From: a virus
Virus record (IMG/VR): IMGVR_UViG_3300040946_000073
Span: 1-39,015 of that record
DNA: 39,015 nucleotides
Reading direction: 5' to 3' (one strand)
The notes beneath the pieces are model-generated. The model saw only the letters and a program-made list of their open reading frames with translations. It was not told the DNA's origin and did no database searches. Below, piece by piece: positions 1 to 21,586 of this stretch (the stretch's first letter is position 1; the number at the start of each line of letters is the position of its first letter). Both the position numbers and the translations under genes were made by a program.

Positions 1-240
1 TGTTGAAACTGAGAACAACATATTGGGGCAATAGGTGGCCTTGTTCGCAGCTATCCATGTGGGCACCGCTTTTAGCTTGTTTACATCTCCGCCCGAGCTC
101 TGGTACTGATAGTCAGGATACACAGCAAAGCAGTAGGCTGGCTCCTGACTGAAAGCCGATGGGGGATTAAGGAGCACAAGCCACAAAAATAATAAGAACA
201 GCGCGGCAAACCAAAGCACCGGCTTGAGAAGAATCTTCAT
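1..240 (-). CDS. Small exported protein, 3' end cut by window edge
   Basis: The frame opens with ATG at 238-240 on the minus strand and stays open for 80 codons to base 1, so the C-terminus lies outside the window. The N-terminus is a clear Sec signal peptide: two Lys, about 20 hydrophobic residues (Leu, Phe, Trp rich), then an AFS-QE cleavage-like site. The mature part seen is about 45 residues with two Cys. The ATG overlaps the stop of the upstream gene (ATGA), so the two are probably translationally coupled. It is the last visible member of a run of exported proteins on this strand. I do not recognise the family. Confidence 0.6.
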   Translation of the reverse strand, partial: MKILLKPVLWFAALFLLFLWLVLLNPPSAFSQEPAYCFAVYPDYQYQSSGGDVNKLKAVPTWIAANKATYCPNMLFSVST

Positions 241-1193
241 CACTGCACGTCCAAACACATCAGATTCACGCTACCCCCGGCATAGGTGAGCGTGCCGGTT
301 GCCTGCGCATCGAGCACGTATTGCCCCCATGTCAATGCGCTTCCGTAGTTAACGTCTCCTGTCAAATTCCCATTGGGCGCGACGCTGAATCCGGTTGCCG
401 CGGACGTGGCCACGCCGCCTAGCGCCAGGTAGTCAGTCGAATTCGTCAAGGTGCAAGTTAACTGAGTCCCACTGTATGCTGCGCCCGTGAACGTCGCGGC
501 AGTGTAGTTGGCAAAGGCGCTCACGTTGGACCATTCACCGACTAGACAGACGGTGTAGGCTGTCGTCACGGAGCTCGGGGTGATGGTCAGATGGTGGATG
601 CCGGTCGCAAAGGCCAAGGTATGAAAAAACTGCCCGGTGCGGGAACCGCCAACCTTCGCAGCCTCCAGCACGTAGGTCGAAGTCCCGCTGCTCGCATCGT
701 CGGTGATAGTCCCACCCGTGAGCGATATGGATGTGCTCGTAATGCCGAACTCAAACACCGCGCCATCGCCCGGCGCCGCCGGAGTGTAGGTAAACGACAA
801 TGCAGATCCGCCGCTGTGTTGGCAGGCGGTTCCTGCTCCTAAGTTAGGCGTGGGGGTGCTGGCGATCGTGTACGCTTCACTGGCCACCGCGCTTGCCGAG
901 TACCCCGTGGCCGCTGCCCCCGCCCGGATGTATCCAGATCCGCTCACCGCGACCGGAGTTGAATAGGATGTTCCGGGACTGCAGGTGTTCGTTCCATCCG
1001 TGCAATAGCTCATCACAAAGCCGGACAATCCAGAGCCGGTATCAGAAATGGTGATCGGGCTGGAACTCCCGCTAGAGAATGTCGGCGTGGCGACGGTGGG
1101 GGCCATTTTGTGCTTGACGACAATAGCCTCTTGGCCCACAGCTATCCCGCAGAGGAGCACCGCAAGAAACGACAGTGAAGTCGGTTTTTTCAC
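240..1193 (-). CDS. Exported protein with CHB_HEX/FN3-like domain
   Basis: This 317-residue protein starts at GTG, one base after the TAG of the upstream fibre gene. A Sec signal peptide covers about residues 1-20 (two Lys, a hydrophobic core, GQ cleavage region). Residues about 32-110 look like the chitobiase/hexosaminidase C-terminal-type FN3 fold (PTFSSG, ITISDTGSG and a terminal SEAYTI), a non-catalytic beta-sandwich common in cell-surface and tail-fibre proteins. The rest is Ser/Thr/Gly-rich beta-type sequence with scattered Cys and no catalytic motif that I recognise. A role in surface binding or as a fibre accessory follows from context only. The signal peptide argues against simple cytoplasmic assembly into a tail. 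Confidence 0.65.
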   Translation of the reverse strand: MKKPTSLSFLAVLLCGIAVGQEAIVVKHKMAPTVATPTFSSGSSSPITISDTGSGLSGFVMSYCTDGTNTCSPGTSYSTPVAVSGSGYIRAGAAATGYSASAVASEAYTIASTPTPNLGAGTACQHSGGSALSFTYTPAAPGDGAVFEFGITSTSISLTGGTITDDASSGTSTYVLEAAKVGGSRTGQFFHTLAFATGIHHLTITPSSVTTAYTVCLVGEWSNVSAFANYTAATFTGAAYSGTQLTCTLTNSTDYLALGGVATSAATGFSVAPNGNLTGDVNYGSALTWGQYVLDAQATGTLTYAGGSVNLMCLDVQ

Positions 1194-1194
1194 G

Positions 1195-3207
1195 CTAATT
1201 CACCGTGTAATCTACGGCGCAGCTCAGCGACGTTGGCGTTCCTGAAATCGCGCCCACATGCAAGGTGACCGGAGTGTGCGCTGCTATTGGGCAATAGGCG
1301 GTTTGCGAACCGCACGACCCACTTACCCAGGTCGCGACGACTACCTGATTTACATCACCAGCAGTGGCCGTCATATCCGCAACGAGCGAGTTGCCTCCAG
1401 AGACCAAATTTGTGGTCACTGAGGTTGTTCCGGTGAGACCGCAGGAGAAGCGGATCAGCTTGACGGCCGTCGCGGGATCGAGGATCACGATCAACAGATC
1501 ATCCCCCGTCACTGGAGCCACGTCGGTCACCGTGGCCGTGCGCGTGGACTGCGCAGTTGGCAGCGTATATACGGATGCTGCCACTGAGATATTCGCGGGG
1601 CCGCCCGTCACTGCGACATTGCTGCCTGCCTTGATCGGCGTGCCGCCTGTATAGTCGCTGGTGATGCTCGTCGTGGATGCGATTGGCACCGTCTGGTACG
1701 CAACGAGACTCGGAGCTGAAGCCCCGGAATTATAAGTGGCGCCAGAGGCAAGCGCGATCGATCCCGCGCCTGCAGAATCTTCCGCAACAATCACCGCGCA
1801 AGGATTCGCGGGCTGGGTCGCTGGCAGTGTCAACACATAGCCAGCGAGGTTAATGATGTAGCCACAATCACTCGAAAGCAGTGAACGAGACGATGCCAGC
1901 GAAAGTGTGCCCGAGGGACTAACCGGCCCCTGCGGGCCGGTTGCGCCCGTGGCGCCGGCGCTGCCCTGGGGCCCGACAAGCGACGTACAGGTCCCCGGCC
2001 ACGCGCCGCTCGCTTTGGGGCCATAGAGACAGTTCGTAGTGGTGAGAAGATAGAAGTCGCCATTCGCGCCGGTGCCGCTGCCGGGCGCGCTCGCCCCATT
2101 CCAGATCGTATTGCCGTTCGTGCCGTTGCTTCCAGCTGTGCCCTGGCCGCCCGTGGCGCCGGCGGCGCCTTGCGCCCCGGTTGCGCCCGCCGCGCCGGCG
2201 CTGCCCTGGGGTCCGACAAGCGACGTACAGGTCCCCGGCCACGCGCCGCTCGCTTTGGGGCCATAGAGACAGTTCGTAGTGGTGAGAAGATAGAAGTCGC
2301 CATTCGCGCCGGTGCCGCTGCCGGGCGCGCTCGCGCCATTCCAGATCGTATTGCCGTTCGTGCCGTTGCTTCCAGCTGTGCCCTGGCCGCCCGTGGCGCC
2401 GGCGGCGCCTTGCGCCCCGGTTGCGCCCGCCGCGCCGGTGGCTCCTGTCGCGCCAGTTGCGCCCTGCGGCCCCTGCGCTCCTGCGGCCCCCGTTGGCCCC
2501 GTGGCGCCGGTGGCGCCCGCTGCCCCAGTGGCGCCCGCCTGCGCAATCAGACCCCAATCTGCCCAACTGCTGGGCGGCGTCACGCTCGTGCTCGACGCCA
2601 GCGCCAGATAACTCGCTCCGCTATAACTCACGGCCTCGCCAGCGACATACGCGGTCGAGCTGCTCCACGCGCCCATCCACATCCAGCCGCCGCCGGTGCC
2701 GCTTGCCGTGCAGGTGAGCGAGATTATGTCACACGTAAATCCGCTGCCTAGAATCCACGCGCCCGCCACGCCGTTGATCGACTGCCCATACGCCATAGGC
2801 GGCAGCGCCGGGACGCCGGGAACGAAGTTATCGAAGTTATCGACGCCGGAGGCGTACCAGTAGTTGCTCGCGCTGGGCTGCACGCAGCTGCTCAAGACTT
2901 TGACGCCGTTCGCTGTCGCGAGCGCTACGCGCCAACAGAGATTCAGCGGTGCGGTATAAGCCGAGTCCGGCATCGAGGGCAGACTGAAAGCGCCGGCGGT
3001 GACCAGCGCGGTGATTGGCGTGGGAGTCGCCAGGCCGCCGCTGCCGTTGCGATAAGTCGTGGGCGTGCCATTGCTGAGCACCGGCGTCCAATAGATGGTG
3101 CCGTTCGCCGCCGAATTCCCGTCCTGCAGATGACTCGCCGCGACGGGCACCGTCTGCGCAAAGGCTGCGCAGCAAATCGCCAAAACCAACCACGCGATGT
3201 TCTTCAT
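1195..3207 (-). CDS. Exported collagen-like fibre protein
   Basis: This 670-residue protein starts at ATG 3205-3207 with a GAGG Shine-Dalgarno sequence about 8 bases upstream; a longer frame to 3267 has no such support. Order of parts: signal peptide 1-17 (AFA-QT cleavage site); an N-terminal beta domain with a Cys pair, ending in CVQPS, that resembles the neighbouring spike protein; a chitin-binding-like segment at about 175-215 (repeated Trp, TAYVAGEAVSYSG); collagen-like Gly-X-Y repeats rich in GAT, GPQ and GAQ (about 221-429) broken by a duplicated 80-residue insert; then a beta-rich, Thr/Ser-rich C-terminal head with several Cys. Gly-X-Y stalks with globular heads are typical of trimeric phage fibres, but a Sec signal is not. 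It could be a receptor-binding fibre, a surface-displayed protein of the lysogen, or both. Confidence 0.75.
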   Translation of the reverse strand: MKNIAWLVLAICCAAFAQTVPVAASHLQDGNSAANGTIYWTPVLSNGTPTTYRNGSGGLATPTPITALVTAGAFSLPSMPDSAYTAPLNLCWRVALATANGVKVLSSCVQPSASNYWYASGVDNFDNFVPGVPALPPMAYGQSINGVAGAWILGSGFTCDIISLTCTASGTGGGWMWMGAWSSSTAYVAGEAVSYSGASYLALASSTSVTPPSSWADWGLIAQAGATGAAGATGATGPTGAAGAQGPQGATGATGATGAAGATGAQGAAGATGGQGTAGSNGTNGNTIWNGASAPGSGTGANGDFYLLTTTNCLYGPKASGAWPGTCTSLVGPQGSAGAAGATGAQGAAGATGGQGTAGSNGTNGNTIWNGASAPGSGTGANGDFYLLTTTNCLYGPKASGAWPGTCTSLVGPQGSAGATGATGPQGPVSPSGTLSLASSRSLLSSDCGYIINLAGYVLTLPATQPANPCAVIVAEDSAGAGSIALASGATYNSGASAPSLVAYQTVPIASTTSITSDYTGGTPIKAGSNVAVTGGPANISVAASVYTLPTAQSTRTATVTDVAPVTGDDLLIVILDPATAVKLIRFSCGLTGTTSVTTNLVSGGNSLVADMTATAGDVNQVVVATWVSGSCGSQTAYCPIAAHTPVTLHVGAISGTPTSLSCAVDYTVN
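1952..2438 (-). repeat. Tandem 240-bp in-frame duplication in fibre gene
   Basis: Bases 1952-2198 match 2192-2438 with a period of 240 bp. I count two mismatches over the 247 aligned bases (1972/2212 and 2095/2335). The unit is exactly 80 codons, so the frame is kept, and it contains a short globular insert plus a Gly-X-Y stretch. The near identity suggests a recent unequal exchange or slippage event that lengthened the stalk. Confidence 0.95.
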
Positions 3208-3241
3208 CCGGCATGCCTCACTTCGAGCGCATTCACGGCGC

Positions 3242-6200
3242 TCAAATCTTCGCCGTCCAAGTTCCACTCAGGCAGACGGTTCCATGTCCGTCCTGCGAGA
3301 AAACCCATATGCCATTGGTGGAGCACGAGCCGCTGGGCGCCGTGGCAGGGCCGCTTACTTTCACCGTTTCGCAGGTCGCCACGGAACCCGCGGGCATGCC
3401 TGGCGGCACGCAGCCGTGGTATTGATCCCGGCGCGCTTCTTCGATCTGATCCGCCGTCAGGTTGCAGGTTCCCGCCGCTGTGCAGGCCGGATTGTTCGGG
3501 CCGGGGATGAATGCCCAGAATGGCTCTGCAGTTTGGTTGCCAGCCGTCCCGCTGCCACCGTTCGTCGCAGCAAGCTCGAAGTGGATATTGTGTGAGGTCG
3601 AGCTTCCGGTAGAGACAGTGCAAATCGCGACCTCCGGGCTCCAACCATTGCTGTAAAGTCCAGTGCCGAAGGCGCCGGGAGCGCAAGTGTTCGTCAACGA
3701 TCCGACGTTCTGCGTCGGCGTGAATTCGTTAGAGTCGTCCGACTGGATGAAGAACGAATTGCCGTTGCCAATCACGCCGCCTATCGATCCCGCCGTGTGC
3801 ACTTCATTCAATCCAGGTCGTACCCACGAACCGATGATGAAGTGATCGCCGGGGTAGGTTGCGCCCGTCCATGTGCCGATAGAAATGTTTGTGCCGGTAA
3901 CGCTCGTGTCGATCTCGGCTGCGGCCATCGACCCCGCTGGACCATCTGGGCCAACCGCCGCTGTAGCCGTGCAAGACGCCGATGCGCACAGGCCGCTCCA
4001 CGCAGCCACGGTATCGCTTGCCATGGGCAGGGAGCCGTAAGGGAGTATCGAAGGCGGAAAACTCGCGCTCTCGTTCTCAATCTCACCCGCCAGCAAATTG
4101 CCCTCATTGTAGACGCCGCTTGATGCCGACCCATTCGGCGGAAAGGCGCGGATTGCGCTCTGGGTCTCCGTGTCGGTCAGGTTGCCGTTGAAATAAGAGT
4201 TCGTGACCGGGTTCCCATAGAGGGTGGCCATGTACGTTTGCACGCAGCCGGATGGAGGCAGGCCGCCGTCCGTGTAGCCGATTTCAGGTTGATTCAAGAG
4301 GGAGATATTATCTTGAGTATTGAGGTTCGTCAGAGACAGGCAGTTCGGAGTTTGGATTCCGTTCCGGTTATCGACACTGATGACGTTGCCGAAAACCTCT
4401 TCAAAGTCCGGGTACGTGATGATCGGAAATCCGACAAGCTGATTTACACCGTCGCCGGTGATTTTGATGTTGCCGAAGAACCAGGTCTTGTCGATGGTCG
4501 TGCGGTCGCAGCCGTCTACTGAATGCGAATAGTAGCCGCCCACCGAGGCATCGGAATTGCACAGCAGGGCAGAGGGGTAACTAGGCTGTGAGCAACCCCC
4601 GCTCGGGCAACTGCCCGCGCCGTTCAAACTCTCTTGGAAATATCCGCCACTGATGTGCGAGAAGTAGTTTGAGCTAAGTTCCGTGGCGACAGAGGTGAGG
4701 TACGGCCATGCCTGCGTAGAGATATTATTCAGCGTCAGGTTTGTGCTGCCCTCAGCCCAGAAGCACGCGCCCGCGCACTGCTCGATGGTGAGATCGGACC
4801 AAGTTTGAGAGCCATAGGTGTTGAACGCAGGACCAGCCGCAACCTCTCCCCATTGGTCGGTCGAAAGGTGCGTGTGCTTGCTCATGACCGTGACCTGGCC
4901 CGAGCCGCATGAATTGTAGTTCACGCCGTTGAAGGTTCCGCCCACGCCGTTCGAGCACAGGATGCGGATTGATTCGAATTTGTCCTCGTTGAACCCTGTC
5001 GCCGTGCAGCCGGTAGCCGTCGTATTCGTCGTCGTGGTCACAAAGAAGGTGACGGTCTGGGCGGTGTAGTCGGAAGAAGCGACCGGGATGTTGCTTACAT
5101 TCACCGACGAATCCGAGCATCCAGTTACGGAGATGTTTTCGCCTGGAGGAATGCGCAGCGGAGTGGAGAACGAGAGAGTGACTTTGCTAAACCCCACAGG
5201 CGCATCGATGACGCGGGTCGCTGTGGCTGAGACGGAAGCGAGAGCAGCCCCCGTGAACGCCGCGCCGACTGGCAAGTTTGCAATACCGCACGATGGGCCG
5301 CCGCCGTAGACTGTCCCGCTGAAAGTCGGTGTGATGTTGGTCGCGGTATTCGCGGCGGTGATGGCCGTGCCCAGCGTTCCAGTGCACATCGGGCCAAAGA
5401 TCGTCGCCGGAACGGTGTCGTCTTGAAATTGTTGCGGCGCTCCGCCGGCATCGCCAAATAAGCTCGCCCAGCCCGGTAAGACCAAGGTCGAGCCAACCTG
5501 GAGACCCCCTTGCAATTCAAACTTCACCATTCCCGCCGATGGTCCAGTGAGCAGCGAAAAATTTTGCAGGTAACATCCCGGCCCCGTGCTGCCAGCCCGC
5601 ACGCAAGGTAGACGCACGATCCCCGTTCCGCCGTAGACGGAATCCACATTGCTGATGCACGCCTGCACCGCGCTGTAGATGTCCGTGGTCCCGTTAATCA
5701 CCGCGCCCTCGGAGCGAACGTCGCACACCGGCGAGAGAGAAGTGCTCGACTTTGCCGAGCCCACATTGCCGGTCACGGCGATGCCGTTAGCCCCGTCTGA
5801 GACGAGCCCGGTGATTGAACCTCCCGATGAACTGCCCGCCGGTCCCTGCGGCCCCGTGGCGCCGGTCGCGCCCGTTGGCCCCTGTGGAACCGTGAAATTA
5901 AGAACCGCCGCTGTGGAGCTTCCCGTGTTCGCCACCGCGGCGCTCGATCCTGCTGCGCCGGTGGTAGTGGTGCCGACCGATACCGTCGCGGAGCCGTTGC
6001 TGCCCGTCGGCCCCGTCGGCCCCGCAGGCCCCGCAGGCCCTTCGGCTATCAGCGCGGTTGGCGCTGCGGGGGGCACGTAAGTGTCGAAGCTCCACGTCGA
6101 TCCCGAGGGCTGCACGCACGGCATCACCGGCGCGGCCCATCCGGTCACCGCATCTAGAATCGTTGTCTTGTAGCAGAAGTGCAGCGGATTGGTCGTCGTC

Positions 6201-6478
6201 GTGTCGAGCACCGTGCAGGCCGTTCCGTTGAGCGCTGTCGTGATGGCCCCGTTTGCGACCAGGCACACGGCCGCGCGTGGAACCATCAGGCCGCCGCTCG
6301 ATCCCAGATTCACGTTGAGCGGGTTGCCGTTCGCATCCGTGGGCTGCATGGTGATCTCGCCGCGCTGCAGCGGAGCGTTATCGCCGCCTACGATCGTCGT
6401 GCCCACGATATGCGTGGTCTGCGCGAACACCGCGGAGGCGGCGAGAGCCAATATCGCAAACCCACGAAGCCGGTTCAC
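3242..6478 (-). CDS. Exported collagen/beta-helix tailspike-like protein
   Basis: This 1078-residue protein most likely starts at GTG 6476-6478: AGGAG lies 7 bases upstream and the start overlaps the previous stop (GTGA). Order of parts: signal peptide 1-19 (AVFA-QT); an N-terminal beta domain with paired Cys ending in CVQPSG, like that of the next fibre gene; short collagen-like stretches (GPAGPAGPTGPTG and GPTGATGATGPQGPAG); from about residue 250 a pectate-lyase-3/tailspike type entry (D..SEGAVINGTTD...AVQACI...GGTGIVRLP) leading into a long, Asn/Ser/Gly-rich right-handed beta-helix; a lectin-like beta region; and a small C-terminal domain. Such spikes bind or cut surface polysaccharide in known phages. 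I cannot point to catalytic residues. The many paired Cys fit an oxidising, exported location. Confidence 0.75.
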   Translation of the reverse strand: MNRLRGFAILALAASAVFAQTTHIVGTTIVGGDNAPLQRGEITMQPTDANGNPLNVNLGSSGGLMVPRAAVCLVANGAITTALNGTACTVLDTTTTNPLHFCYKTTILDAVTGWAAPVMPCVQPSGSTWSFDTYVPPAAPTALIAEGPAGPAGPTGPTGSNGSATVSVGTTTTGAAGSSAAVANTGSSTAAVLNFTVPQGPTGATGATGPQGPAGSSSGGSITGLVSDGANGIAVTGNVGSAKSSTSLSPVCDVRSEGAVINGTTDIYSAVQACISNVDSVYGGTGIVRLPCVRAGSTGPGCYLQNFSLLTGPSAGMVKFELQGGLQVGSTLVLPGWASLFGDAGGAPQQFQDDTVPATIFGPMCTGTLGTAITAANTATNITPTFSGTVYGGGPSCGIANLPVGAAFTGAALASVSATATRVIDAPVGFSKVTLSFSTPLRIPPGENISVTGCSDSSVNVSNIPVASSDYTAQTVTFFVTTTTNTTATGCTATGFNEDKFESIRILCSNGVGGTFNGVNYNSCGSGQVTVMSKHTHLSTDQWGEVAAGPAFNTYGSQTWSDLTIEQCAGACFWAEGSTNLTLNNISTQAWPYLTSVATELSSNYFSHISGGYFQESLNGAGSCPSGGCSQPSYPSALLCNSDASVGGYYSHSVDGCDRTTIDKTWFFGNIKITGDGVNQLVGFPIITYPDFEEVFGNVISVDNRNGIQTPNCLSLTNLNTQDNISLLNQPEIGYTDGGLPPSGCVQTYMATLYGNPVTNSYFNGNLTDTETQSAIRAFPPNGSASSGVYNEGNLLAGEIENESASFPPSILPYGSLPMASDTVAAWSGLCASASCTATAAVGPDGPAGSMAAAEIDTSVTGTNISIGTWTGATYPGDHFIIGSWVRPGLNEVHTAGSIGGVIGNGNSFFIQSDDSNEFTPTQNVGSLTNTCAPGAFGTGLYSNGWSPEVAICTVSTGSSTSHNIHFELAATNGGSGTAGNQTAEPFWAFIPGPNNPACTAAGTCNLTADQIEEARRDQYHGCVPPGMPAGSVATCETVKVSGPATAPSGSCSTNGIWVFSQDGHGTVCLSGTWTAKI

Positions 6479-6867
6479 TGAGCTTCTCCTTGCGCCTGAG
6501 CGACCACCGCCCACTGCGTGGTGGTGGGAGACGCCGGCAGCATGAACTTGGCGAACTCGCCGAACGCGCCCAGGTTCTGGCCTTCGTTGGTGAAGAAATA
6601 AGCACCGTACTTCGCGGACGGATTGAAGAGAGCGTCCGTCGTCGATTCCAGTGTGAAGGACGCGATGGTGAGCGTCGCGCCGCCCGCCGTGCAGGCCACA
6701 GCTACGAAGAAGTTGTCATTCTGCGAAGCATCCTCGCTGGGGACGCCGGCGGGGATCAGGTTGCCATCGGCGGAAACGAAGCTCTCCAGCGCGTAGATGC
6801 GCAGGACCACATTGTTGCTGAGCTCCCAGTTGCCGATGGTTGCGGGCGAGAAGGTGATGACGGCCAT
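6475..6867 (-). CDS. Hypothetical protein preceding exported spike
   Basis: This 130-residue protein starts at ATG 6865-6867. It has no signal peptide, no membrane segment and no motif that I recognise. It is rich in beta-forming residues, with a distinctive aromatic stretch (KYGAYFFTNEGQNLGAFGEF). Its stop overlaps the GTG start of the spike gene, so it is translationally coupled to it. A chaperone, an anchor or a fibre-connector role would fit the position, but nothing in the sequence shows it. Confidence 0.55.
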   Translation of the reverse strand: MAVITFSPATIGNWELSNNVVLRIYALESFVSADGNLIPAGVPSEDASQNDNFFVAVACTAGGATLTIASFTLESTTDALFNPSAKYGAYFFTNEGQNLGAFGEFAKFMLPASPTTTQWAVVAQAQGEAQ

Positions 6868-6894: not shown

Positions 6895-7434
6895 TTAGAG
6901 GCAGTCCGCGGCGGCAACGCTGCGCGGGGCGGTGAATTCTTTGTCTCGTGTCTCATTCAGGAAGTGCTTGAACGAAATCCGCGAGATGCGCCAGGTGTAT
7001 TCCTTGCTCAGCCGGTAGGCGTCGAAGCGGCCTTCTTCAATCAGGTAGATCAGCGGACGCCGGTCATCGTAGCCGAGCGCCGCCAACGCCTCGGCCGAGT
7101 AGATCGTGTCGCTTAGCGGGAAAGGCAGCAGATCCTCGTCGCGATGGCGCAGCATGGGGTGATCGAGCCTGGGACGCCGATCCGCAATGCCGTATTCCCC
7201 GCGCAGGAAGTTGCAGAAGCCCACGATCGACGAATAGAGCACGCGCTTGCGCGCCTGGTGGCGATAGCTCACCAGCTTGATGGCGGCGTGCCCGTCGCGA
7301 TAGCTTTCTTCGGCCATGCGGTAGACCGTGCTGATGCCGACGCCGAAGATGTGCGCGGTGCGCGCCACGTCCACGTACTCCTTCTCCGCGAAGGGCAGAA
7401 TGAGCTGGTCGCCGGGTTCGAAGCTGTTGCTCAT
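6895..7434 (-). CDS. HTH protein in the Mor position
   Basis: This 179-residue protein starts at ATG 7432-7434, overlapping the gemA stop (ATGA) and preceded by GGAGGAAGAAGG. Residues about 20-45 (VDVARTAHIFGVGISTVYRM) form an excisionase/MerR-type helix-turn-helix, and a second similar pattern occurs later (SAEALAALGYDDRRPLIYLI). In Mu the gene after gemA is mor, the activator of middle transcription. This protein sits in that position but does not look like Mor/C. A role as the early-to-late regulator is inference from position. It could instead be an excisionase-type DNA-bending protein. Confidence 0.6.
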   Translation of the reverse strand: MSNSFEPGDQLILPFAEKEYVDVARTAHIFGVGISTVYRMAEESYRDGHAAIKLVSYRHQARKRVLYSSIVGFCNFLRGEYGIADRRPRLDHPMLRHRDEDLLPFPLSDTIYSAEALAALGYDDRRPLIYLIEEGRFDAYRLSKEYTWRISRISFKHFLNETRDKEFTAPRSVAAADCL

Positions 7435-7943
7435 GCCTTCTTCCTCCAGATGCCCTTGCGCTTTGCGATACGCTTCAGCGCCCACCACACCTTGTTCGCA
7501 TCGGCTGTCGTCCGGATGGTTTTGTCGGCGCGTCTGGCCAGCGGCGATCGCGCCGATTCCAGGAATTTGCGGAATGTCTCCTGCTGCCATCCGAGCTGGT
7601 CTAGCAATCGCTGAATGCGCGCCAGATCTTCGCTGGTGGCCATCTGTGGCGTCGCGGAGTACTCCGCGCCATCCGCACGCCCATCCAGCCCCGCGCGCCG
7701 CGCCTGGGCCGCGCCGGGGCGCTTTACGATGGGAGCCTTGACGCCGAGCTGCTGCTGAATGCTGTCGATCAGGAAGGTCGCCTCGTTGAGCGAGAGCTGC
7801 TTGAAGCTCGCGATCTCGCGCTGCAGGCGCTCGCTGGCCCAGCGCAGTCGGGAGACGCGATCCGCGCTGAGCCCGATCTCGCGCTGTGAAAGTTGACTGT
7901 ACAGGATCTGCAGCCGGCCGAGTTGTGGTTTCGTGATCTGCAT
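7431..7943 (-). CDS. gemA: GemA-like regulatory protein (Mu gp16 family)
   Basis: This 170-residue protein opens with ITKPQLGRLQILYSQ, the typical start of the GemA/gp16 (DUF1018) family of Mu-like phages, and ends with a basic segment (KVWWALKRIAKRKGIWRKK) that also fits the family. In Mu, GemA is an early protein reported to affect host gene expression and DNA topology. The protein is Arg/Lys-rich and probably cytoplasmic and DNA-associated. It follows the small zinc protein directly (TGA next to ATG) and overlaps the downstream HTH gene, so it is part of one polycistronic message. The central part, Ala/Gln-rich with charged helices, is less conserved as far as I can judge. Confidence 0.8.
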   Translation of the reverse strand: MQITKPQLGRLQILYSQLSQREIGLSADRVSRLRWASERLQREIASFKQLSLNEATFLIDSIQQQLGVKAPIVKRPGAAQARRAGLDGRADGAEYSATPQMATSEDLARIQRLLDQLGWQQETFRKFLESARSPLARRADKTIRTTADANKVWWALKRIAKRKGIWRKKA

Positions 7944-12321: not shown

Positions 12322-12719
12322 TGGCCACCTCGCAGGATCCGCTCGACGGGACCGCCGGGCAGGAAGGCTGTACCGACTTCAGCCATGATGTAGAGCATGG
12401 TCAGAATCACGGCGATCGCCAGCACGTTGTTCGCCACGCGGCCGGCGCGTTCAAGCCACGCGCTGATGCGCCGCATCTGGCTGTCGCTGGGCGCGAAGTC
12501 GAGCAGCGCGGCCCAGCGTTGGCGCAGCGTCTTTCTGACGGCGCGCTGCTGGCGCCAAGCCTGCATCGCGTCGACCTCTTCCTGGCAGCGCGGGCAATAA
12601 GGTCCCCCAATGGCGAAGCCGGTGCAGCCACGCACTTGGCAGGGATGGAGCGCGTTGGGAGCGTCGCCGTCGAGGTAACGGCACAGGGATGAAGGAATGG
12701 TTTGCGTACCGGAGTTCAT
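12318..12719 (-). CDS. Zinc-knuckle protein with one membrane segment
   Basis: This 133-residue protein starts at ATG 12717-12719, overlapping the MuB-type stop (ATGA). The N-terminal third has Cys pairs (C...CQVRGC...YCPRC) consistent with a zinc ribbon. The middle is basic and helical. Near residues 97-118 lies a membrane-type segment (VLAIAVILTMLYIMAEVGTAF). A soluble zinc domain anchored to the inner membrane is unusual in the early transposition region of a Mu-like phage. The role is unknown. Confidence 0.6.
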   Translation of the reverse strand: MNSGTQTIPSSLCRYLDGDAPNALHPCQVRGCTGFAIGGPYCPRCQEEVDAMQAWRQQRAVRKTLRQRWAALLDFAPSDSQMRRISAWLERAGRVANNVLAIAVILTMLYIMAEVGTAFLPGGPVERILRGGQ

Positions 12720-13693
12720 GCGATGGCTTCCTTTCTGTCTGCGGCCTCTTGCACTGCCGCGCGTGCGTCTTCGATGGCAAAGAACAAATTGCGCGCCGAG
12801 ACGTAGCGAAACGGCTTGGCGTTGCGCACCGCCTCGACCGATGCACCCTGAATGATGTCGGCCAGGTCGCGCTTGGCTATGGTTCCGAGTTCGGACGTGA
12901 GGATGTGCTGCGCCTCGGCTTCGCTCAGCCCTGCGAGCAGGTGACTGCGGCGCAGGCGGCTGCGCCACTGCTCCATCTGCCAGTTCCTGAGGCGCACGCT
13001 GAGATCGTGGCTGCCGCCCAGCATCACGCCGAAGAACGGCGGCGTGTCGAGCAACTGGCGCAGGATCTCCAGCGTGTTGAACGGGAGATGCTGCGCCTCG
13101 TCGACGATCAGCAGCGCGCGCTGGCCGCCCAGGAAGAAGCGCAGCTTGCGGATGAGCTGCCCGATCGAACCACGGTTGGGAATGCCAGCCTCGGTGCAGG
13201 CTTCGACGAGGAATGCCGAGGGCGCGTGATCGACGCGCGCATACACGTAGACCGCGCGACCCTCGCCGGAAGCGTTGATCTCCGCGGCCACATTGCGAAA
13301 GGTGTAGGTCTTCTGGGTTCCCGGAGGCCCGTCGATGAGAAACGCCGTGCTCTGGCGCAGCGCGTTCCACATTGATCTGCGCACGCGCTCAAACTCAACC
13401 GTCGCATAATGAGGCCCGCTGGCGGGCTCCGCGGTCTCGATTTCGTAGCGGTCTATTGTTTCCTTCACCGCCGCGCGGATGTTCAGCGTATTCGAGTCCG
13501 CCGCGCGGTGACGATCGTAGTTGCCGGCAATCCACACATGGAAAGAGTTGTGGTTAATGCCCACCATATTGGCCAGCTCGATGTAGGTGAGGCCCGCGCG
13601 CAGCGCAAACGCGCGGGCGCGGCGGATCATCTCGGTGTCGTTGGGCAACCCGAGGGCTTGCAGGTGCTGCTTACGAATCGCTGCTACAGGCAC
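12716..13693 (-). CDS. MuB-type AAA+ ATPase, target activator
   Basis: This 325-residue protein starts at GTG 13691-13693 with AGGAG five bases upstream, and overlaps the transposase end by 23 bases. The N-terminal region (about 25-60) is a helix-turn-helix, as in MuB. Walker A is GPPGTQKT (122-129) and Walker B is LLIVDEAQ (194-201); GGSHD near 227 fits sensor 1. MuB-family ATPases form filaments on target DNA, stimulate the transposase and give target immunity. Position directly after the A gene and domain order both fit. Product: DNA transposition protein B homologue. Confidence 0.88.
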   Translation of the reverse strand: MPVAAIRKQHLQALGLPNDTEMIRRARAFALRAGLTYIELANMVGINHNSFHVWIAGNYDRHRAADSNTLNIRAAVKETIDRYEIETAEPASGPHYATVEFERVRRSMWNALRQSTAFLIDGPPGTQKTYTFRNVAAEINASGEGRAVYVYARVDHAPSAFLVEACTEAGIPNRGSIGQLIRKLRFFLGGQRALLIVDEAQHLPFNTLEILRQLLDTPPFFGVMLGGSHDLSVRLRNWQMEQWRSRLRRSHLLAGLSEAEAQHILTSELGTIAKRDLADIIQGASVEAVRNAKPFRYVSARNLFFAIEDARAAVQEAADRKEAIA

Positions 13694-15548
13694 CGTTTCT
13701 CCTTAAAAGTGCTGCCGTGAGCCGGTCTGTAAGTTCGCCTGGCTGTAAGTCATTTGTGGGTTCGAGCGTTTCCGGCGCAAACCTGTGCTTGCGCTGCGTG
13801 ACGATGCCGGTGACATCGCCGGGAAGTGAAAGCCGCGAGGCCATGGCCTCAAGCGGAGACTGCGCGCCGTTGGAGCGGGCGACGCGGCCGATCGTGCTGA
13901 GGGTTTCGCGCGTGGCCTTTTCGAGGCCGCGCCGCGTCTTGAAGCTGTCCGCAATCTGCTGCTGTGTGCGCTCGTTGCCGGGCGCGAAGCGGACCAAATC
14001 CTCGACCCGCAGCCACGCCAGGAAGCAGCCATCCACGTCGAGGGCCGCGGCGCACTCCCAATCGTTGGGATCGTAGGCCACCACAATCTCGCGCTCATTG
14101 CGCTCGTGGATGGTCATCCATCCCGCCTGGTCGACGGGAAGATAGCGGCGCTTGCCGAGCGTGATGGCGCATTCGCGAACTTTTCTGGTTCCACGTTCGG
14201 CCAGCAGCAGCGCCAGCGCGGCCGGATCGGGCGCAGGCGCCTGGTTCGGATTGCGGTTCGCGTTGAAGACTTCGAGAGGCGACCCGCCTTCCATAGCTTC
14301 GCCGGTGTGCGGCGTGGCGTTGTATTCGTCAATCCACGCCAGGCAGGCAACGATGAAGCGGCTGGCCAGCGGATGGCGGCTCTCACTCGCGCGCCCGGCG
14401 CGCAGCAGGCGGCGATGATCAATCATGGCGAGCGACGTAGCATCGGGGCGCGTGAAGGGATTGCCGCTGGTGTAGGTGGGCCAGCACTTGTCGAAGCGCT
14501 CGTGCAGCGAACGGAAGAAACGCTCGACGTGCTTGGATTGCGGGTGGTGCGGAATGCAGTGCGTGACGGCGATGCCCAGGCGCGCCAGAAAGCCGGTGTG
14601 GCCGATGTCTTCGAGCTCCGCGCGCCACCATTCCTTGGGCGCCAGCGGCGACTCCTGCAGGTAGCCGGGCATTGCGCCGCGCGCCACTTTTTTGTAGTCC
14701 TTGCCGTTGTCGACGTAGATGTGTTCCGGCGGCCCATGCTGGAAGATGCCGCGCCGCATGGTGGCGGCGATGGCGCGCGAGCTGCCCTCCCACGCCCAGC
14801 TCGCACCGGCCAACAAGCGAGAGCGATAGTCGAGCATGGCGGAGAGCCGGATGCGGATCGGCGCGCCCCACTCCACATCTTCAAAGAGATCGTTGGCGCA
14901 CTCCACGTCGTGGATCATGTGATCGCCCACCCACACCTGGTTCGCCCAGATGTCGGTGTAGCCGCGGCGCAGGTACGCGGCCATGCGCTCGCGATAAACC
15001 TTGCGCCCTTCTCGCGCGTAAACAGTGAGCGCCGCCGGCATCTGCTTCAGCCAGGCGCGCACCGTTTCGTAGGCGGGCGCTTCCTCGGCCGGAATTTCAA
15101 GGAGTATCAGATCGCGCACGATGGCTTCGTGCGCCACTCTGACGCTGGTGCGTTCGTCAAGATAAAGGTAGGCAGCCAGCCACGCGGCTTTCGGATAGGA
15201 AGAAAAAAAGCGGGAAGTGTTTTTGTCGCGGCGCTGCCGATCGGCGAGGGCCGGCAGGCCGCCTTCGCGGAAAGCATTGAGCCAGTTGAACAACGTGGCG
15301 ACGCCGACGCCCGAGGTTTCCGATGTGTATTTGACCAGGCGGCTGAAGCTGGTGACGGCTTGCCCGTTTTCTAAGCGCAGATCCGCGTACTTGGGAGCGC
15401 CCGCGCGGAAGCCTAGAAGCGGCGCGATCAGCTTCGATCTCGTTTCGGCCTGTTGCTGCGCCTCCGGATCGGTAAGCGCCACGCGCCGCGGCCGCGCCAG
15501 CGAGGCGGGAGGAAAGGGCAGAAGGGCTAACTGCGGTTGCGCGCTCAC
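13671..15548 (-). CDS. MuA-type DDE transposase
   Basis: This 625-residue protein starts at GTG 15546-15548, overlapping the Ner-like stop (GTGA). An N-terminal helical, HTH-rich region precedes the RNase H-like core. The catalytic triad is visible as D209 (QVWVGDHMIHD), D280 (HIYVDNGKDY) and E342 (HPQSKHVERFF), close to the spacing in MuA. A beta-barrel-like segment follows (RRYLPVDQAGW), then a Lys/Arg-containing C-terminus that should contact the B protein. It would cut and join the phage ends during integration and replicative transposition. The ends it acts on are not in the window. Confidence 0.9.
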   Translation of the reverse strand: MSAQPQLALLPFPPASLARPRRVALTDPEAQQQAETRSKLIAPLLGFRAGAPKYADLRLENGQAVTSFSRLVKYTSETSGVGVATLFNWLNAFREGGLPALADRQRRDKNTSRFFSSYPKAAWLAAYLYLDERTSVRVAHEAIVRDLILLEIPAEEAPAYETVRAWLKQMPAALTVYAREGRKVYRERMAAYLRRGYTDIWANQVWVGDHMIHDVECANDLFEDVEWGAPIRIRLSAMLDYRSRLLAGASWAWEGSSRAIAATMRRGIFQHGPPEHIYVDNGKDYKKVARGAMPGYLQESPLAPKEWWRAELEDIGHTGFLARLGIAVTHCIPHHPQSKHVERFFRSLHERFDKCWPTYTSGNPFTRPDATSLAMIDHRRLLRAGRASESRHPLASRFIVACLAWIDEYNATPHTGEAMEGGSPLEVFNANRNPNQAPAPDPAALALLLAERGTRKVRECAITLGKRRYLPVDQAGWMTIHERNEREIVVAYDPNDWECAAALDVDGCFLAWLRVEDLVRFAPGNERTQQQIADSFKTRRGLEKATRETLSTIGRVARSNGAQSPLEAMASRLSLPGDVTGIVTQRKHRFAPETLEPTNDLQPGELTDRLTAALLRRNGACSSDS

Positions 15549-15820: not shown

Positions 15821-16273
15821 GTGCCCGTGAAAAAAGAGGAATTGCCGCCGTACGCGCTGCGGTTGAGAGCCCTGCGAGACAAGCTCGGCTTCGATCGTCA
15901 GATTGAATTCGCTGCCGCCCTAGGCACAAGGCAAGCCACTATATCCAGATGGCTTAATGGCACGGCTCGGCCGCTGCCGCTCGCCTTCATGCGCATGGCC
16001 GGGCTGGCTCAAGGCGAGGACCGCATCTTCTTTCTGAGAGAGGGCGGCGTTCTTATCGAGGACGGTGACCCTGTGGACCCGGCGATCGCCCAGTCCTTTT
16101 TCGCCGGCGAGTCCCGGCCGGCGAAAGCGCGCGCCAACCTCGCCGCGCTCCTTGAAGCCATCCCAACCTTGGATAGCGAAACGATCTGCGCTATCATGGA
16201 GGCCGCGAGCCGCGAGCTCGCGAAGAGGGCTCGCGCTGGACGCGCTTCCGCGCCCGGAAAGGAACTTCCATGA
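15821..16273 (+). CDS. HTH repressor candidate
   Basis: This 150-residue protein starts at GTG 15821, the first start after an in-frame stop, with AAGAGGG upstream. Residues 27-47 form an HTH (QIEFAAALGTRQATISRWLNG) of the Cro/CI type. The C-terminal helical region (residues about 100-145) may serve oligomerisation. I see no Ser-Lys protease (LexA-like) domain, so RecA-driven self-cleavage is not expected. It is divergent from the early operon and next to a candidate operator, as expected for the lysogeny repressor of a transposable phage. It overlaps the next gene by 4 bases (ATGA). Confidence 0.7.
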   Translation: MPVKKEELPPYALRLRALRDKLGFDRQIEFAAALGTRQATISRWLNGTARPLPLAFMRMAGLAQGEDRIFFLREGGVLIEDGDPVDPAIAQSFFAGESRPAKARANLAALLEAIPTLDSETICAIMEAASRELAKRARAGRASAPGKELP

Positions 16274-16875
16274 AAAAGATCGCGATCGCAATTTGCCTGA
16301 TCCTGATCGGCGGTGTCGTCGCCGCGTCTTCACAATCGACCGAGCCAGCGACGAGGAACTGGGCGCAGGAGCCGTCCTCCTTCCTGGGAATTCAGATTGG
16401 CAAGCCTATTGCGAAATCTGTGCCTGAGTGCCCATATAGAACTGAGTACGGATATCGACGCTACGACATCCTCGATTGGAGCAATCTCGGCCATCCATGC
16501 TTCGAGCCCATTGACGACTTCTATTCCGTCCACAACGTCGATGCGTTTTTTGATGTCTTCGTGCACCAGGTGGCTGGGAAAGTCGAATGCGTTAGTGGCT
16601 TTTTTAAAGAGCAGCAGACTTCCGCAGTCAGCCAAGCCTTGATAGAGAAGTACGGACCGGCCCTCGTTACGACGGTGGAGCAAAAGCAAAACAGAATGGG
16701 CGCGGCGTTCCCTGATCACGTCATGCTCTGGAAGGGAACAACCGTCCAAATTAGCTTCCACTCGGTGGCCGGCAGAATAGACGAAGGATCTGTGACGGCA
16801 TACACCTTGACCTACGAAGCTCAAATCGCGAGGGACACCGAAAAAGGCGCGAACTCAATCAAAGGCACCCTCTAG
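16270..16875 (+). CDS. Exported protein coupled to the repressor
   Basis: This 201-residue protein starts at ATG 16270, overlapping the repressor stop. A Sec signal peptide covers residues 1-19 (two Lys, then IAIAICLILIGGVVAAS). The mature part has four Cys, a GIQIGKPI motif and a mixed alpha/beta pattern, with no enzyme motif that I recognise. Because it should be expressed with the repressor in the lysogen, it is a candidate for superinfection exclusion or lysogenic conversion; that is inference from position. The base composition is less G+C-rich than the head genes, which fits a recently acquired cargo gene. Confidence 0.65.
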   Translation: MKKIAIAICLILIGGVVAASSQSTEPATRNWAQEPSSFLGIQIGKPIAKSVPECPYRTEYGYRRYDILDWSNLGHPCFEPIDDFYSVHNVDAFFDVFVHQVAGKVECVSGFFKEQQTSAVSQALIEKYGPALVTTVEQKQNRMGAAFPDHVMLWKGTTVQISFHSVAGRIDEGSVTAYTLTYEAQIARDTEKGANSIKGTL

Positions 16876-17093: not shown

Positions 17094-17606
17094 GTGAACC
17101 AACTCCAGCAAACGTTTTTGCAATTGGCGGTACCGGCGGCGATGGCGTCGCAGGCCGCGACGGGAGTGCCGGCGTCGATCACCATCGCGCAGGCCATTCT
17201 CGAATCGGGCTGGGGACAATCGGGGCTCGCGAAAAAAGCCAACAACTTTTTCGGCATCAAGGCGGCGGCGCACGCCGCCCCGGACAGCTATATCCAGTTG
17301 CCCACCGAAGAGATTGGGTTGGGCCACGCCGTGACCGAGGAAGCCGACTTCGCCAAGTACGCGAGCGTCGCCGACGGATTCAAGGCGCACGGGCTGCTGC
17401 TGATGCAGGCTTCGCGCTACGCGCCGGCCATGGCGGTGCGCAACAGTCCCGCGCAGTTCGCCGCGCACTTGCAGAAGTGTGGCTACTCCACGAATCCCAA
17501 CTACGCGAGCGAGCTGATGAAGATCGTCGCGGAGCTCGATCTGGCGCAATACGACACGCAAGCAAATTCGCAGCCGGCCACGCCGGCAGCAGAGGTGAAG
17601 GCATGA
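17094..17606 (+). CDS. Glucosaminidase-type endolysin
   Basis: With the GTG at 17094 the protein has 170 residues; an in-frame ATG at 16980 would add 38 residues of Arg/Gly/Cys-rich sequence that does not look like a real domain. The protein matches the FlgJ/LytA-like mannosyl-glycoprotein endo-beta-N-acetylglucosaminidase family: PASITIAQAILESGWGQSGL holds the expected catalytic Glu, followed by NNFFGIK and later YASVADGFKAHG and YAPAM. It would cut the glycan strands of peptidoglycan at lysis. I see no signal peptide, so release needs a holin or other membrane hole. Its stop overlaps the next start (ATGA). Confidence 0.82.
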   Translation: MNQLQQTFLQLAVPAAMASQAATGVPASITIAQAILESGWGQSGLAKKANNFFGIKAAAHAAPDSYIQLPTEEIGLGHAVTEEADFAKYASVADGFKAHGLLLMQASRYAPAMAVRNSPAQFAAHLQKCGYSTNPNYASELMKIVAELDLAQYDTQANSQPATPAAEVKA

Positions 17607-18175
17607 GAATTCTGAACTTCTTTTCGAAGACCTGGAAATATCTGAACGCGCGCGCGCTGGCAGGCTTCACGCTTTCGACGATCCTATTCTCGGGCACGCT
17701 GCCGGTGTGCACGGTTGCCACCGGATGCACGAGCACGCAGGTGATCAAGGAGATCAACGTGGCGCTCAACGAGGCCAGCGCCGTCCTGGCCGTTGCCGAC
17801 CCGAGCGCGCCGTGGCTGAACGATCTCAAGAACGCCATCGTGAATTTGCAGGGCGCCGAATCGACCTGGCAGAGCGGCGGCAAAGTTGCGATCGTGGACG
17901 ATGCGCTGAACACGCTGGCAGCGGTCACCGCGGCAATTCCACTGACGGCCGTCTACTCGCCTTTGATCGATGTTCTGGTCGCCAGCATTGAGGAAGTTCT
18001 TGCCGCGCTTCCCACATCGACCGCGGCCAGATTGTCGGCAACGCTGGCGACCAATCCGCACGCCGGCCGCTATCAGATCCAGAAGCGCTGGTACCGCACA
18101 CCAGCAGGAAATCTGAAAGCGAACTGGAACCAGGTGGCGAAGGCCAAGGGCCTGACGCTGATGCTTTTGAAGTAG
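17603..18175 (+). CDS. Exported or membrane-anchored lysis-region protein
   Basis: This 190-residue protein starts at ATG 17603, overlapping the endolysin stop. A basic N-terminus and a hydrophobic segment (about 17-40) are followed by CTVATGCTS, where either Cys could be a lipidation site. The mature part is helical with long Ala/Val-rich amphipathic stretches (residues about 50-150), then a basic C-terminus (IQKRWYRTPAGNLKANW). Its position after the endolysin suggests a lysis role, for example spanin-like, but no spanin signature is clear. Confidence 0.6.
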   Translation: MRILNFFSKTWKYLNARALAGFTLSTILFSGTLPVCTVATGCTSTQVIKEINVALNEASAVLAVADPSAPWLNDLKNAIVNLQGAESTWQSGGKVAIVDDALNTLAAVTAAIPLTAVYSPLIDVLVASIEEVLAALPTSTAARLSATLATNPHAGRYQIQKRWYRTPAGNLKANWNQVAKAKGLTLMLLK

Positions 18176-18186
18176 TGGAGGCGCCC

Positions 18187-18450
18187 GTGGCCCCGATCGT
18201 ATTCAACAAAATCTCGCCGCTGAAGTATCGCGCGATCGTGGCGCGCATCCGCGCGCAGGCCGACTTGATCACGATCAACGGCAACACTGGATCGGCGATG
18301 GGCCAGAGCCCGCTCGGCATGTTCGCCGCGGAATGGACCTACGACGGCGTGGCAAACCTGACGATCACGCTCACCAAAAAACCGCTCCTGGTCACAGAAA
18401 ATTTCATGATTGCAAAGATGCAGGCGTTGGTGGAGTCGATCAACCTATGA
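18187..18450 (+). CDS. Hypothetical protein in the lysis module
   Basis: The best start is GTG 18187, with GGAGG five bases upstream (87 residues); a GTG at 18175 overlapping the previous stop is the alternative. The protein is basic at the N-terminus with a mixed alpha/beta pattern and no membrane segment. No family recognised. It overlaps the following papain-like gene by an ATGA junction. Confidence 0.55.
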   Translation: MAPIVFNKISPLKYRAIVARIRAQADLITINGNTGSAMGQSPLGMFAAEWTYDGVANLTITLTKKPLLVTENFMIAKMQALVESINL

Positions 18451-19229
18451 GCACAGACCATTCAAAAATGAAGCTGGGCCGCAAGGCCATCAAGACCGAC
18501 AGCCGCACCCTGATGCTGGGCGACTACCTGACACCCAGCCTGCCCCCACCACCGCCCACGGCCGACTGGACCAAGGGCATCACCGTCTGGGGCATGATGC
18601 TGAATGGCCCCGATCCTGCGGAGCCCAAATACCCCGATGGATTGAGGGACTGCACCATCGCCGGCTGCGGGCACGCGGTACAGGTATGGACCGCGAACGC
18701 CGGCAGCGAAGTGACTCTGCCCGTCGCAAGCATTGAGGAGTACTACCAGTGGTGGGACGGCTACGAGCCCGGCGATCCCTCGACCGACAATGGCGGTGCT
18801 GAGCTGGACGTACTCAACAAGTGGAAGCGGGGTCTCTTCGCCGGCCACGCACTCACGGCATTCGCAGATCCCAAGCCTACAAATCTGACCGAGGTGCAGC
18901 AGTCGATCGCTCTCTTCGGCGGCGTCTACATTGGAGTGTCGCTGCCCCTGACGGCGCAAACGCAGGACGTATGGGACGTGGCGCCGAACGGTGGCGACGA
19001 CGCCGCGCCCGGAAGCTGGGGCGGTCACTGCGTATTCGTTCCCAAGTACGACGAGCGCGGCTTTACGTGCATCACCTGGGGCCAGCTAAAGACGATGACC
19101 TTGGCTTTCTGGAACAAGTACTGCGATGAGGCGCACGCTCTGCTCAGCCCGGATTGGCTGGCGGCAAAAGGCTCGCCCAGCGGGTTCGATCAGGCGCAGT
19201 TGCTGGCCGATCTAGGGGCAATTGTTTAG
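18447..19229 (+). CDS. Papain-like (C1 family-like) protein
   Basis: This 260-residue protein starts at ATG 18447. Residues 66-81 (LRDCTIAGCGHAVQVW) look like the Cys-bearing first helix of papain-like peptidases (C69 or C74 as nucleophile), and 190-212 (SWGGHCVFVPKYDERGFTCITWG) closely follow the C1 pattern of a GGH-containing strand, a turn with Gly, then a strand ending in SWG; H194 would be the catalytic His. The usual Asn before SWG is Thr here, so activity is uncertain. There is no signal peptide. A Pro-rich patch (LPPPPPT) lies near residue 32. It could be a lysis amidase/peptidase or a host-directed protease. Confidence 0.6.
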   Translation: MSTDHSKMKLGRKAIKTDSRTLMLGDYLTPSLPPPPPTADWTKGITVWGMMLNGPDPAEPKYPDGLRDCTIAGCGHAVQVWTANAGSEVTLPVASIEEYYQWWDGYEPGDPSTDNGGAELDVLNKWKRGLFAGHALTAFADPKPTNLTEVQQSIALFGGVYIGVSLPLTAQTQDVWDVAPNGGDDAAPGSWGGHCVFVPKYDERGFTCITWGQLKTMTLAFWNKYCDEAHALLSPDWLAAKGSPSGFDQAQLLADLGAIV

Positions 19230-21361: not shown

Positions 21362-21586
21362 ATGAAAAAACTATTGCTAGCTGGTTCTTTGCTGCTCACC
21401 GGTTGCGGGCACTATCAGGTTTCGGTTTACGGGCACAGCGGAGCGGCCTTCACTGCGCCTTCACTCTGCGCTGCTATGGTTCAGTGTCTCAATAGCAACG
21501 AGACTTCCTGCTTCTACGACCGGAATCTGATGCAAACGGCGACAGGACAAACCGAGATGGAAGAGTGCAAGGAAGTTAAGAAGTAA
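21362..21586 (+). CDS. Small lipoprotein inserted between terminase genes
   Basis: This 74-residue protein starts at ATG 21362 after a purine-rich GGGAAATGGGAA. The signal peptide KKLLLAGSLLLTGC ends in a lipobox (LLTG-C, lipidated Cys about residue 15). The mature part is about 60 residues with four further Cys, enough for two disulfides. No family recognised. The normal Mu order is small terminase then large terminase, so this looks like an inserted gene. Confidence 0.7.
   Translation: MKKLLLAGSLLLTGCGHYQVSVYGHSGAAFTAPSLCAAMVQCLNSNETSCFYDRNLMQTATGQTEMEECKEVKK

Follow-up and report, generated by a model that had tools for sequence, protein, structure and literature searches.

The window, that is, the whole stretch of DNA analysed here, is an entire virus record, linear and 39,015 bp long, both ends of which are cut inside genes. 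A leftward early operon runs from about 15.5 kb and comprises genes for MuA-like and MuB-like proteins, small early genes, a gp16-like gene, an HTH_17-like gene, a gene encoding a 130-aa protein, and four genes that we named f1 to f4, the last of them truncated (table 1). The rightward operon carries the lysis, head, and tail genes and ends in a truncated J-like gene. The head genes are of the transposable-phage type, with PHROG matches for terminase, portal, gpF-like minor head protein, protease, and capsid. Together with the MuA and MuB matches, they bear out the preliminary description of the element as a Mu-like siphophage. The gp16-like gene was named by none of the family models run and is presumably of the GemA/DUF1018 type. 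Near the lysis region, three plus-strand ORFs (16270–16875, 17477–18175, and 21362–21586) are predicted to encode exported or lipoprotein-like proteins (MKKIAIAICLILIG..., VATGCTSTQ..., and MKKLLLAGSLLLTGC..., respectively), possibly lysis or spanin components. A 298-aa ORF on the same strand (18333–19229), overlapping 18175–18450, reads by eye like a cysteine protease (GCGHAVQVW...GSWGGHCVFV), an odd neighbour for lysis genes. A 4,496-bp contig from another sample (L031) encodes portal, gpF-like, and protease proteins sharing 99–100% identity with those of the window; it represents the same or a near-identical phage assembled from a second metagenome.

Table 1. Features of the window discussed in the text, with coordinates, strand, and supporting evidence
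Feature	Coordinates	Strand	Evidence or remarks
MuA-like transposase	13671..15548	-	phrog_310, 1.4e-75
MuB-like DNA transposition protein	12716..13693	-	phrog_296, 1.7e-30
gp16-like protein, anchor gene of the survey of relatives	7431..7943	-	Alignment A1 and relatives
HTH_17-type DNA-binding protein, adjoining the 130-aa gene upstream (ORF open to 7590)	6895..7434	-	Pfam HTH_17, 3.6e-4, under the family cut-off
130-aa cytoplasmic protein, overlapping the f1 start	6475..6867	-	Also upstream of f1-type fibres in L003, L004, L005, L075, and L077
f1, 1079-aa SP-bearing fibre	3242..6481	-	SP, beta-sandwich N-terminal domain, collagen-like region (aa ~147-239), large C-terminal region
f1 signal peptide, predicted cleavage between MNRLRGFAILALAASAVFA and QTT	6425..6481	-	Heuristic
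f1 N-terminal domain, fibre attachment-type beta sandwich	6062..6421	-	Alignment A2, AlphaFold2 pLDDT 84.7, Foldseek
f2, 670-aa SP-bearing fibre	1195..3207	-	N-terminal domain as in f1, CBM_5_12-like segment (Pfam 5.3e-6), collagen repeats
f2 signal peptide, predicted cleavage between MKNIAWLVLAICCAAFA and QTV	3157..3207	-	Heuristic
f3, 317-aa SP-bearing protein	240..1193	-	Weak match to Fn3_assoc; mature protein with 6 Cys
f4, first 80 aa of an exported or membrane-anchored protein truncated at the contig end	1..240	-	ORF and SP heuristic
J-like central tail fibre, truncated at the contig end	38144..39015	+	Weak phrog_31 match, homologues, downstream genes in relatives

As first described, the four consecutive minus-strand ORFs f1 to f4 each start with a segment resembling a Sec-type signal peptide (SP). 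SPs were called by a transparent heuristic of our own and not by SignalP. The ORF reported at 3242–6478 stands, with a corrected start: the real start of f1 is a GTG at 6481, which overlaps the stop of the 130-aa gene and has an AGGAG Shine–Dalgarno (SD) motif 7 nt upstream. Genes of the block overlap or are separated by gaps of 1–35 bp, and terminator-like sites are not above those of shuffled sequences, in agreement with the claim that the block continues the early operon on the same strand without a visible terminator. Promoter-like sites within the block were not above chance in a scan with an E. coli-type consensus. Mature f1 contains 32 Cys, including the Cys pairs of its N-terminal domain (N-domain). 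The collagen-like character previously assigned to two of the proteins holds for f2 (Pfam Collagen 2.6e-11) and, more weakly, for f1. The beta-helix proposed alongside it found no support in f1, as the Pfam search returned no match and a single-sequence fold model (pLDDT 35) was worthless. For f3, the heuristic places the cleavage site between MKKPTSLSFLAVLLCGIAVG and QEA, and segments of this protein resemble the C-terminal part of the L077 fibre. The 80 aa available for f4 resemble, by eye, the N-terminus of an exported protein of the metallophosphoesterase type (FAVYPDYQY...WIAANK); the hydrophobic stretch of f4 is unusually long and could be a membrane anchor.

Full-length f1 used as a query gave no matches in viral contigs or isolate phages. 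We therefore sought relatives through MuA, portal, and the gp16-like gene, which retrieved 28, 11, and 57 related loci, respectively; all eight genomic hits among them are Acidobacteriaceae MAGs. In about two dozen of the related loci, the HTH gene is followed by at least one large SP-bearing protein (360–2004 aa), often with collagen-like stretches. Relatives devoid of this left-end cassette carry the SP-bearing fibre after the J-like gene. This late-strand arrangement, usually with a protein of about 117 aa, was found in nine loci (G007, G012, G013, G015, G017, G019, G025, G027, and G032), in which the left-end cassette is either absent or the contig is cut there. Three others (G026, G028, and G041) have an SP-less fibre in the post-J position. 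Where both ends are resolved, the cassette occupies one of them, the left in G014, G004, and G011 and the right in G015, G017, and G019. It always lies on the outward-pointing strand, the left and right locations being almost complementary; G006 seems to have a cassette at both ends. C-terminal modules are common to left-end and right-end fibres, for instance one with 64% identity between f2 and the post-J fibre of L042, and we therefore consider them as one shuffled family. The block had been regarded as peculiar to the early strand of one phage. Instead, the comparison with other transposable phages revealed a fibre cassette that recurs across related Mu-like phages of Acidobacteriaceae and is widespread among them, at either genome end. 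Host-like genes were read by eye from the sequences outside the phage ends in G012, G014, G019, and G032. The possibility that the block consists of host genes past the phage end was discarded, since many phages have it in the same position and host-like DNA begins only beyond it. In L023 and L091, the fibre SP directly follows the first residues of the 130-aa protein, and in L227 part of this protein appears to be fused in frame to the fibre. The 130-aa protein may be a fibre partner or chaperone.

Several observations indicate that the block very probably consists of tail-fibre genes, as judged from sequence and predicted structure. The f2 protein matches a PHROG tail-fibre family (phrog_5073, 9.3e-31), and f1 has a tail-fibre match restricted to its collagen part (4.8e-6). 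The f1 N-domain is confidently modelled as a beta-rich fold (AlphaFold2 pLDDT 84.7). Its closest Foldseek matches are minor tail proteins and tailspikes of phages, the PDB list including the P22, Pan3, and Pam1 tails, all with E > 0.001 and hence weak support; when the N-domain sequence was searched against the PDB, E values were about 0.05 or worse. The C-terminus of an SP-less homologue (L110) resembles annotated tail fibres and tailspikes of isolate phages, and the alignment shows that the attachment-type N-terminal domain is common to the SP-bearing proteins and the SP-less tail fibres. The fibre genes lie at the end of the early strand in the window and in the tail module in relatives. 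Known collagen-like phage tail fibres (phrog_5073, phrog_819, and phrog_1806) resemble the proteins studied here in their collagen repeats, N-terminal attachment-type domain, variable C-terminus, and, as regards the relatives, location in or beside the tail operon. However, known tail fibres lack an SP, whereas the window-type fibres have one. Likewise, none of ten annotated tail fibres inspected in six isolate phages of other phyla has an SP. On one point, therefore, the family departs from a tail fibre made in the cytoplasm without an SP: 42 of 49 N-domain proteins carry an SP, and the Cys evidence points the same way.

These 42 proteins include 41 recognised by the heuristic and one added by eye; the remaining seven lack an SP. 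Chance occurrence was discarded, as the same test is passed by just 4 of the roughly 158 non-fibre ORFs in the related contigs that are at least 400 aa long. In 34 of the 41 SPs, the cleavage motif is [small]-x-[A/S/G] with Gln as the next residue, immediately ahead of the domain. None of the 41 has a lipobox, which rules out lipoproteins. An SD of at least 4 nt precedes 21 of the 41 SP starts, compared with 16% of random sites and 3 of 62 internal start codons, and mis-called starts were rejected on this basis. The cysteines behave like disulphides of exported proteins, judging by their number and distribution: among 33 complete SP-bearing proteins, 32 have an even number of Cys in the mature form (p = 8e-9), compared with 138 of 253 control proteins without an SP. 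The proportion is lower among SP-bearing fibres outside this set (14/19), partly through uncertain cleavage sites. Four aligned Cys pairs of the N-domain covary almost perfectly (for instance, 17 sequences with both residues, 25 with neither, and none with a single one), and a complete Cys pair is present in 35 of the 42 SP-bearing proteins and in none of the seven SP-less ones (Fisher 4e-5). Because the sequences are related, these Cys p-values overstate independence; the C-terminal parts nonetheless differ widely. SP conservation, SD placement, cleavage motif, Cys parity, and covarying Cys pairs thus strongly support the initial proposal that these fibre-like proteins are genuinely exported, and we regard export of the block proteins, as predicted from these features, with high confidence. 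A reading in which the hydrophobic N-terminus serves as a membrane or assembly element, or results from a mis-called start, rather than being a working export signal, is very improbable. It draws on the heuristic nature of the SP calls and on the unusually long hydrophobic stretch of f4, but runs against the SD placement at SP starts, the cleavage motif, Cys parity, and pair covariation.

The A2 profile of the N-domain detected the domain in 21 of 200 genomes of the host family but in only 4 of 297 genomes of the phylum sample. The N-domain gene of non-Mu, siphophage-type prophages either belongs to the tail operon, flanked by the tape measure and a baseplate-hub-type protein, or follows J. 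The SP-less N-domain proteins start at the mature N-terminal residue of the SP-bearing ones, so that the SP has been gained or lost exactly at the domain edge. This is illustrated by L208, whose fibre has an SP, and L223 and L226, whose fibres have none. These loci are collinear over nine to twelve genes, with the fibre in the same slot between tape measure and hub, and their N-domains are 45–53% identical. On the domain tree, the SP-less sequences cluster (two changes, against a shuffled mean of 6.7) and are nested among the SP-bearing ones, deep support being weak. In two Mu-like loci (L106 and L110) and one siphoprophage (L223), the SP-less fibre is followed by a conserved 268-aa protein (MADILQYTNYTS...), which is absent from the SP-bearing loci inspected. 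This protein may mark a cytoplasmic assembly route.

That SP-bearing and SP-less fibres occupy one slot in syntenic prophages bears on what the exported proteins are for. Lysogenic conversion, in which the lysogen would display or secrete them as adhesins or matrix proteins, is compatible with the genuine export signals, with the collagen-like and CBM-like parts, and with a genome-end location, a frequent site of cargo genes. We nevertheless consider it improbable: besides sharing that slot, the genes follow closely on MuA-MuB-gp16 or J, leaving no gaps, and promoter-like sites are not above chance for an E. coli-type consensus. Of the uses first suggested for the exported fibres, display on the lysogen surface loses likelihood from the tight packing of the genes into lytic operons. 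The best fit is an unusual route of assembly following secretion, as many relatives carry the genes in the late tail operon, where they swap places with SP-less fibres and keep the shared domain.

We therefore favour, with a probability of roughly 55%, the interpretation of the block as a tail-fibre cassette of a Mu-like Acidobacteriaceae siphophage, whose fibres have working Sec SPs and are attached to virions after export. During lytic growth, the fibres would be exported via Sec, then folded and disulphide-bonded in the periplasm. At lysis, cytoplasmically assembled virions would become accessible to them, and the conserved N-terminal domain would mediate attachment, much as P22 tailspikes can be added to completed particles in vitro. 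From the gene arrangement and shared domain, we somewhat favour such post-lysis attachment to virions over a free role of the fibres.

Such a free role would make the exported fibres blockers and not virion parts. Made during infection and acting within the periplasm or, once cells have lysed, externally, they would occupy surface glycans or the receptor used by the phage itself and so prevent superinfection and the sticking of progeny to debris, as a large-protein analogue of T5 Llp. Llp is exported early in infection, has a disulphide, and prevents both superinfection and unproductive adsorption (PMC9586334), which provides a precedent for a receptor-blocking phage protein. The early-strand position of the cassette in the window and in left-end relatives also favours an early receptor-blocking role, since expression could precede virion assembly, and the variable fibre C-termini are module-shuffled like receptor-binding parts. 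However, many SP-bearing fibres are encoded in the late tail operon, they have neither a lipobox nor an anchor, and they retain an N-terminal domain in common with SP-less tail fibres, which a free blocker would not need. We hold such a blocker to be unlikely, though a serious alternative to attachment. T5 Llp and the Cor lipoproteins are phage-encoded and exported during infection, as is proposed for the SP-bearing fibres, but Llp is a small lipoprotein, whereas the fibres have 360–2004 aa, no lipobox, and a tail-fibre domain. The late region of the temperate siphophage lambda also encodes envelope proteins, namely Lom, whose gene is located directly after J, and Bor. Lom forms an outer-membrane barrel, Bor is a lipoprotein, and unlike the SP-bearing fibres, neither contains a fibre domain. 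Surface-displayed target proteins of bacterial DGRs resemble the SP-bearing fibres as binding proteins with an SP and variable C-terminal domains, but they are cellular.

Assembly of tailed phages is taught as wholly cytoplasmic, and tail fibres are not known to be made via export. To our knowledge, no phage assembles Sec-exported fibres, and the open-licence literature searched contained no description of tail fibres with export signals. Attachment after export would lead to a broader and still tentative proposal, to which we give somewhat less than even odds, that Acidobacteriaceae phages split virion assembly between the two sides of the inner membrane. Heads and tails would be made in the cytoplasm and disulphide-bonded fibres in the periplasm, the two meeting only at lysis, and fibre genes would switch route by gain or loss of an SP at the domain boundary.

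In published surveys, binding proteins with an SP are taken as cellular rather than phage-encoded (PMC6199706; PMC8144416), and Benler et al. counted the absence of SPs from phage DGR proteins in favour of their phage origin (PMC6199706). The SP-bearing fibres of these phages of soil Acidobacteria break the rule that variable binding proteins of phages have no SP, a rule used in support of assigning such proteins to phages. If our interpretation is true, these fibres are a family-wide exception, implying a novel route of assembly or else exported anti-adsorption proteins of a new class, and the annotation of receptor-binding proteins in Acidobacteria phages would change.
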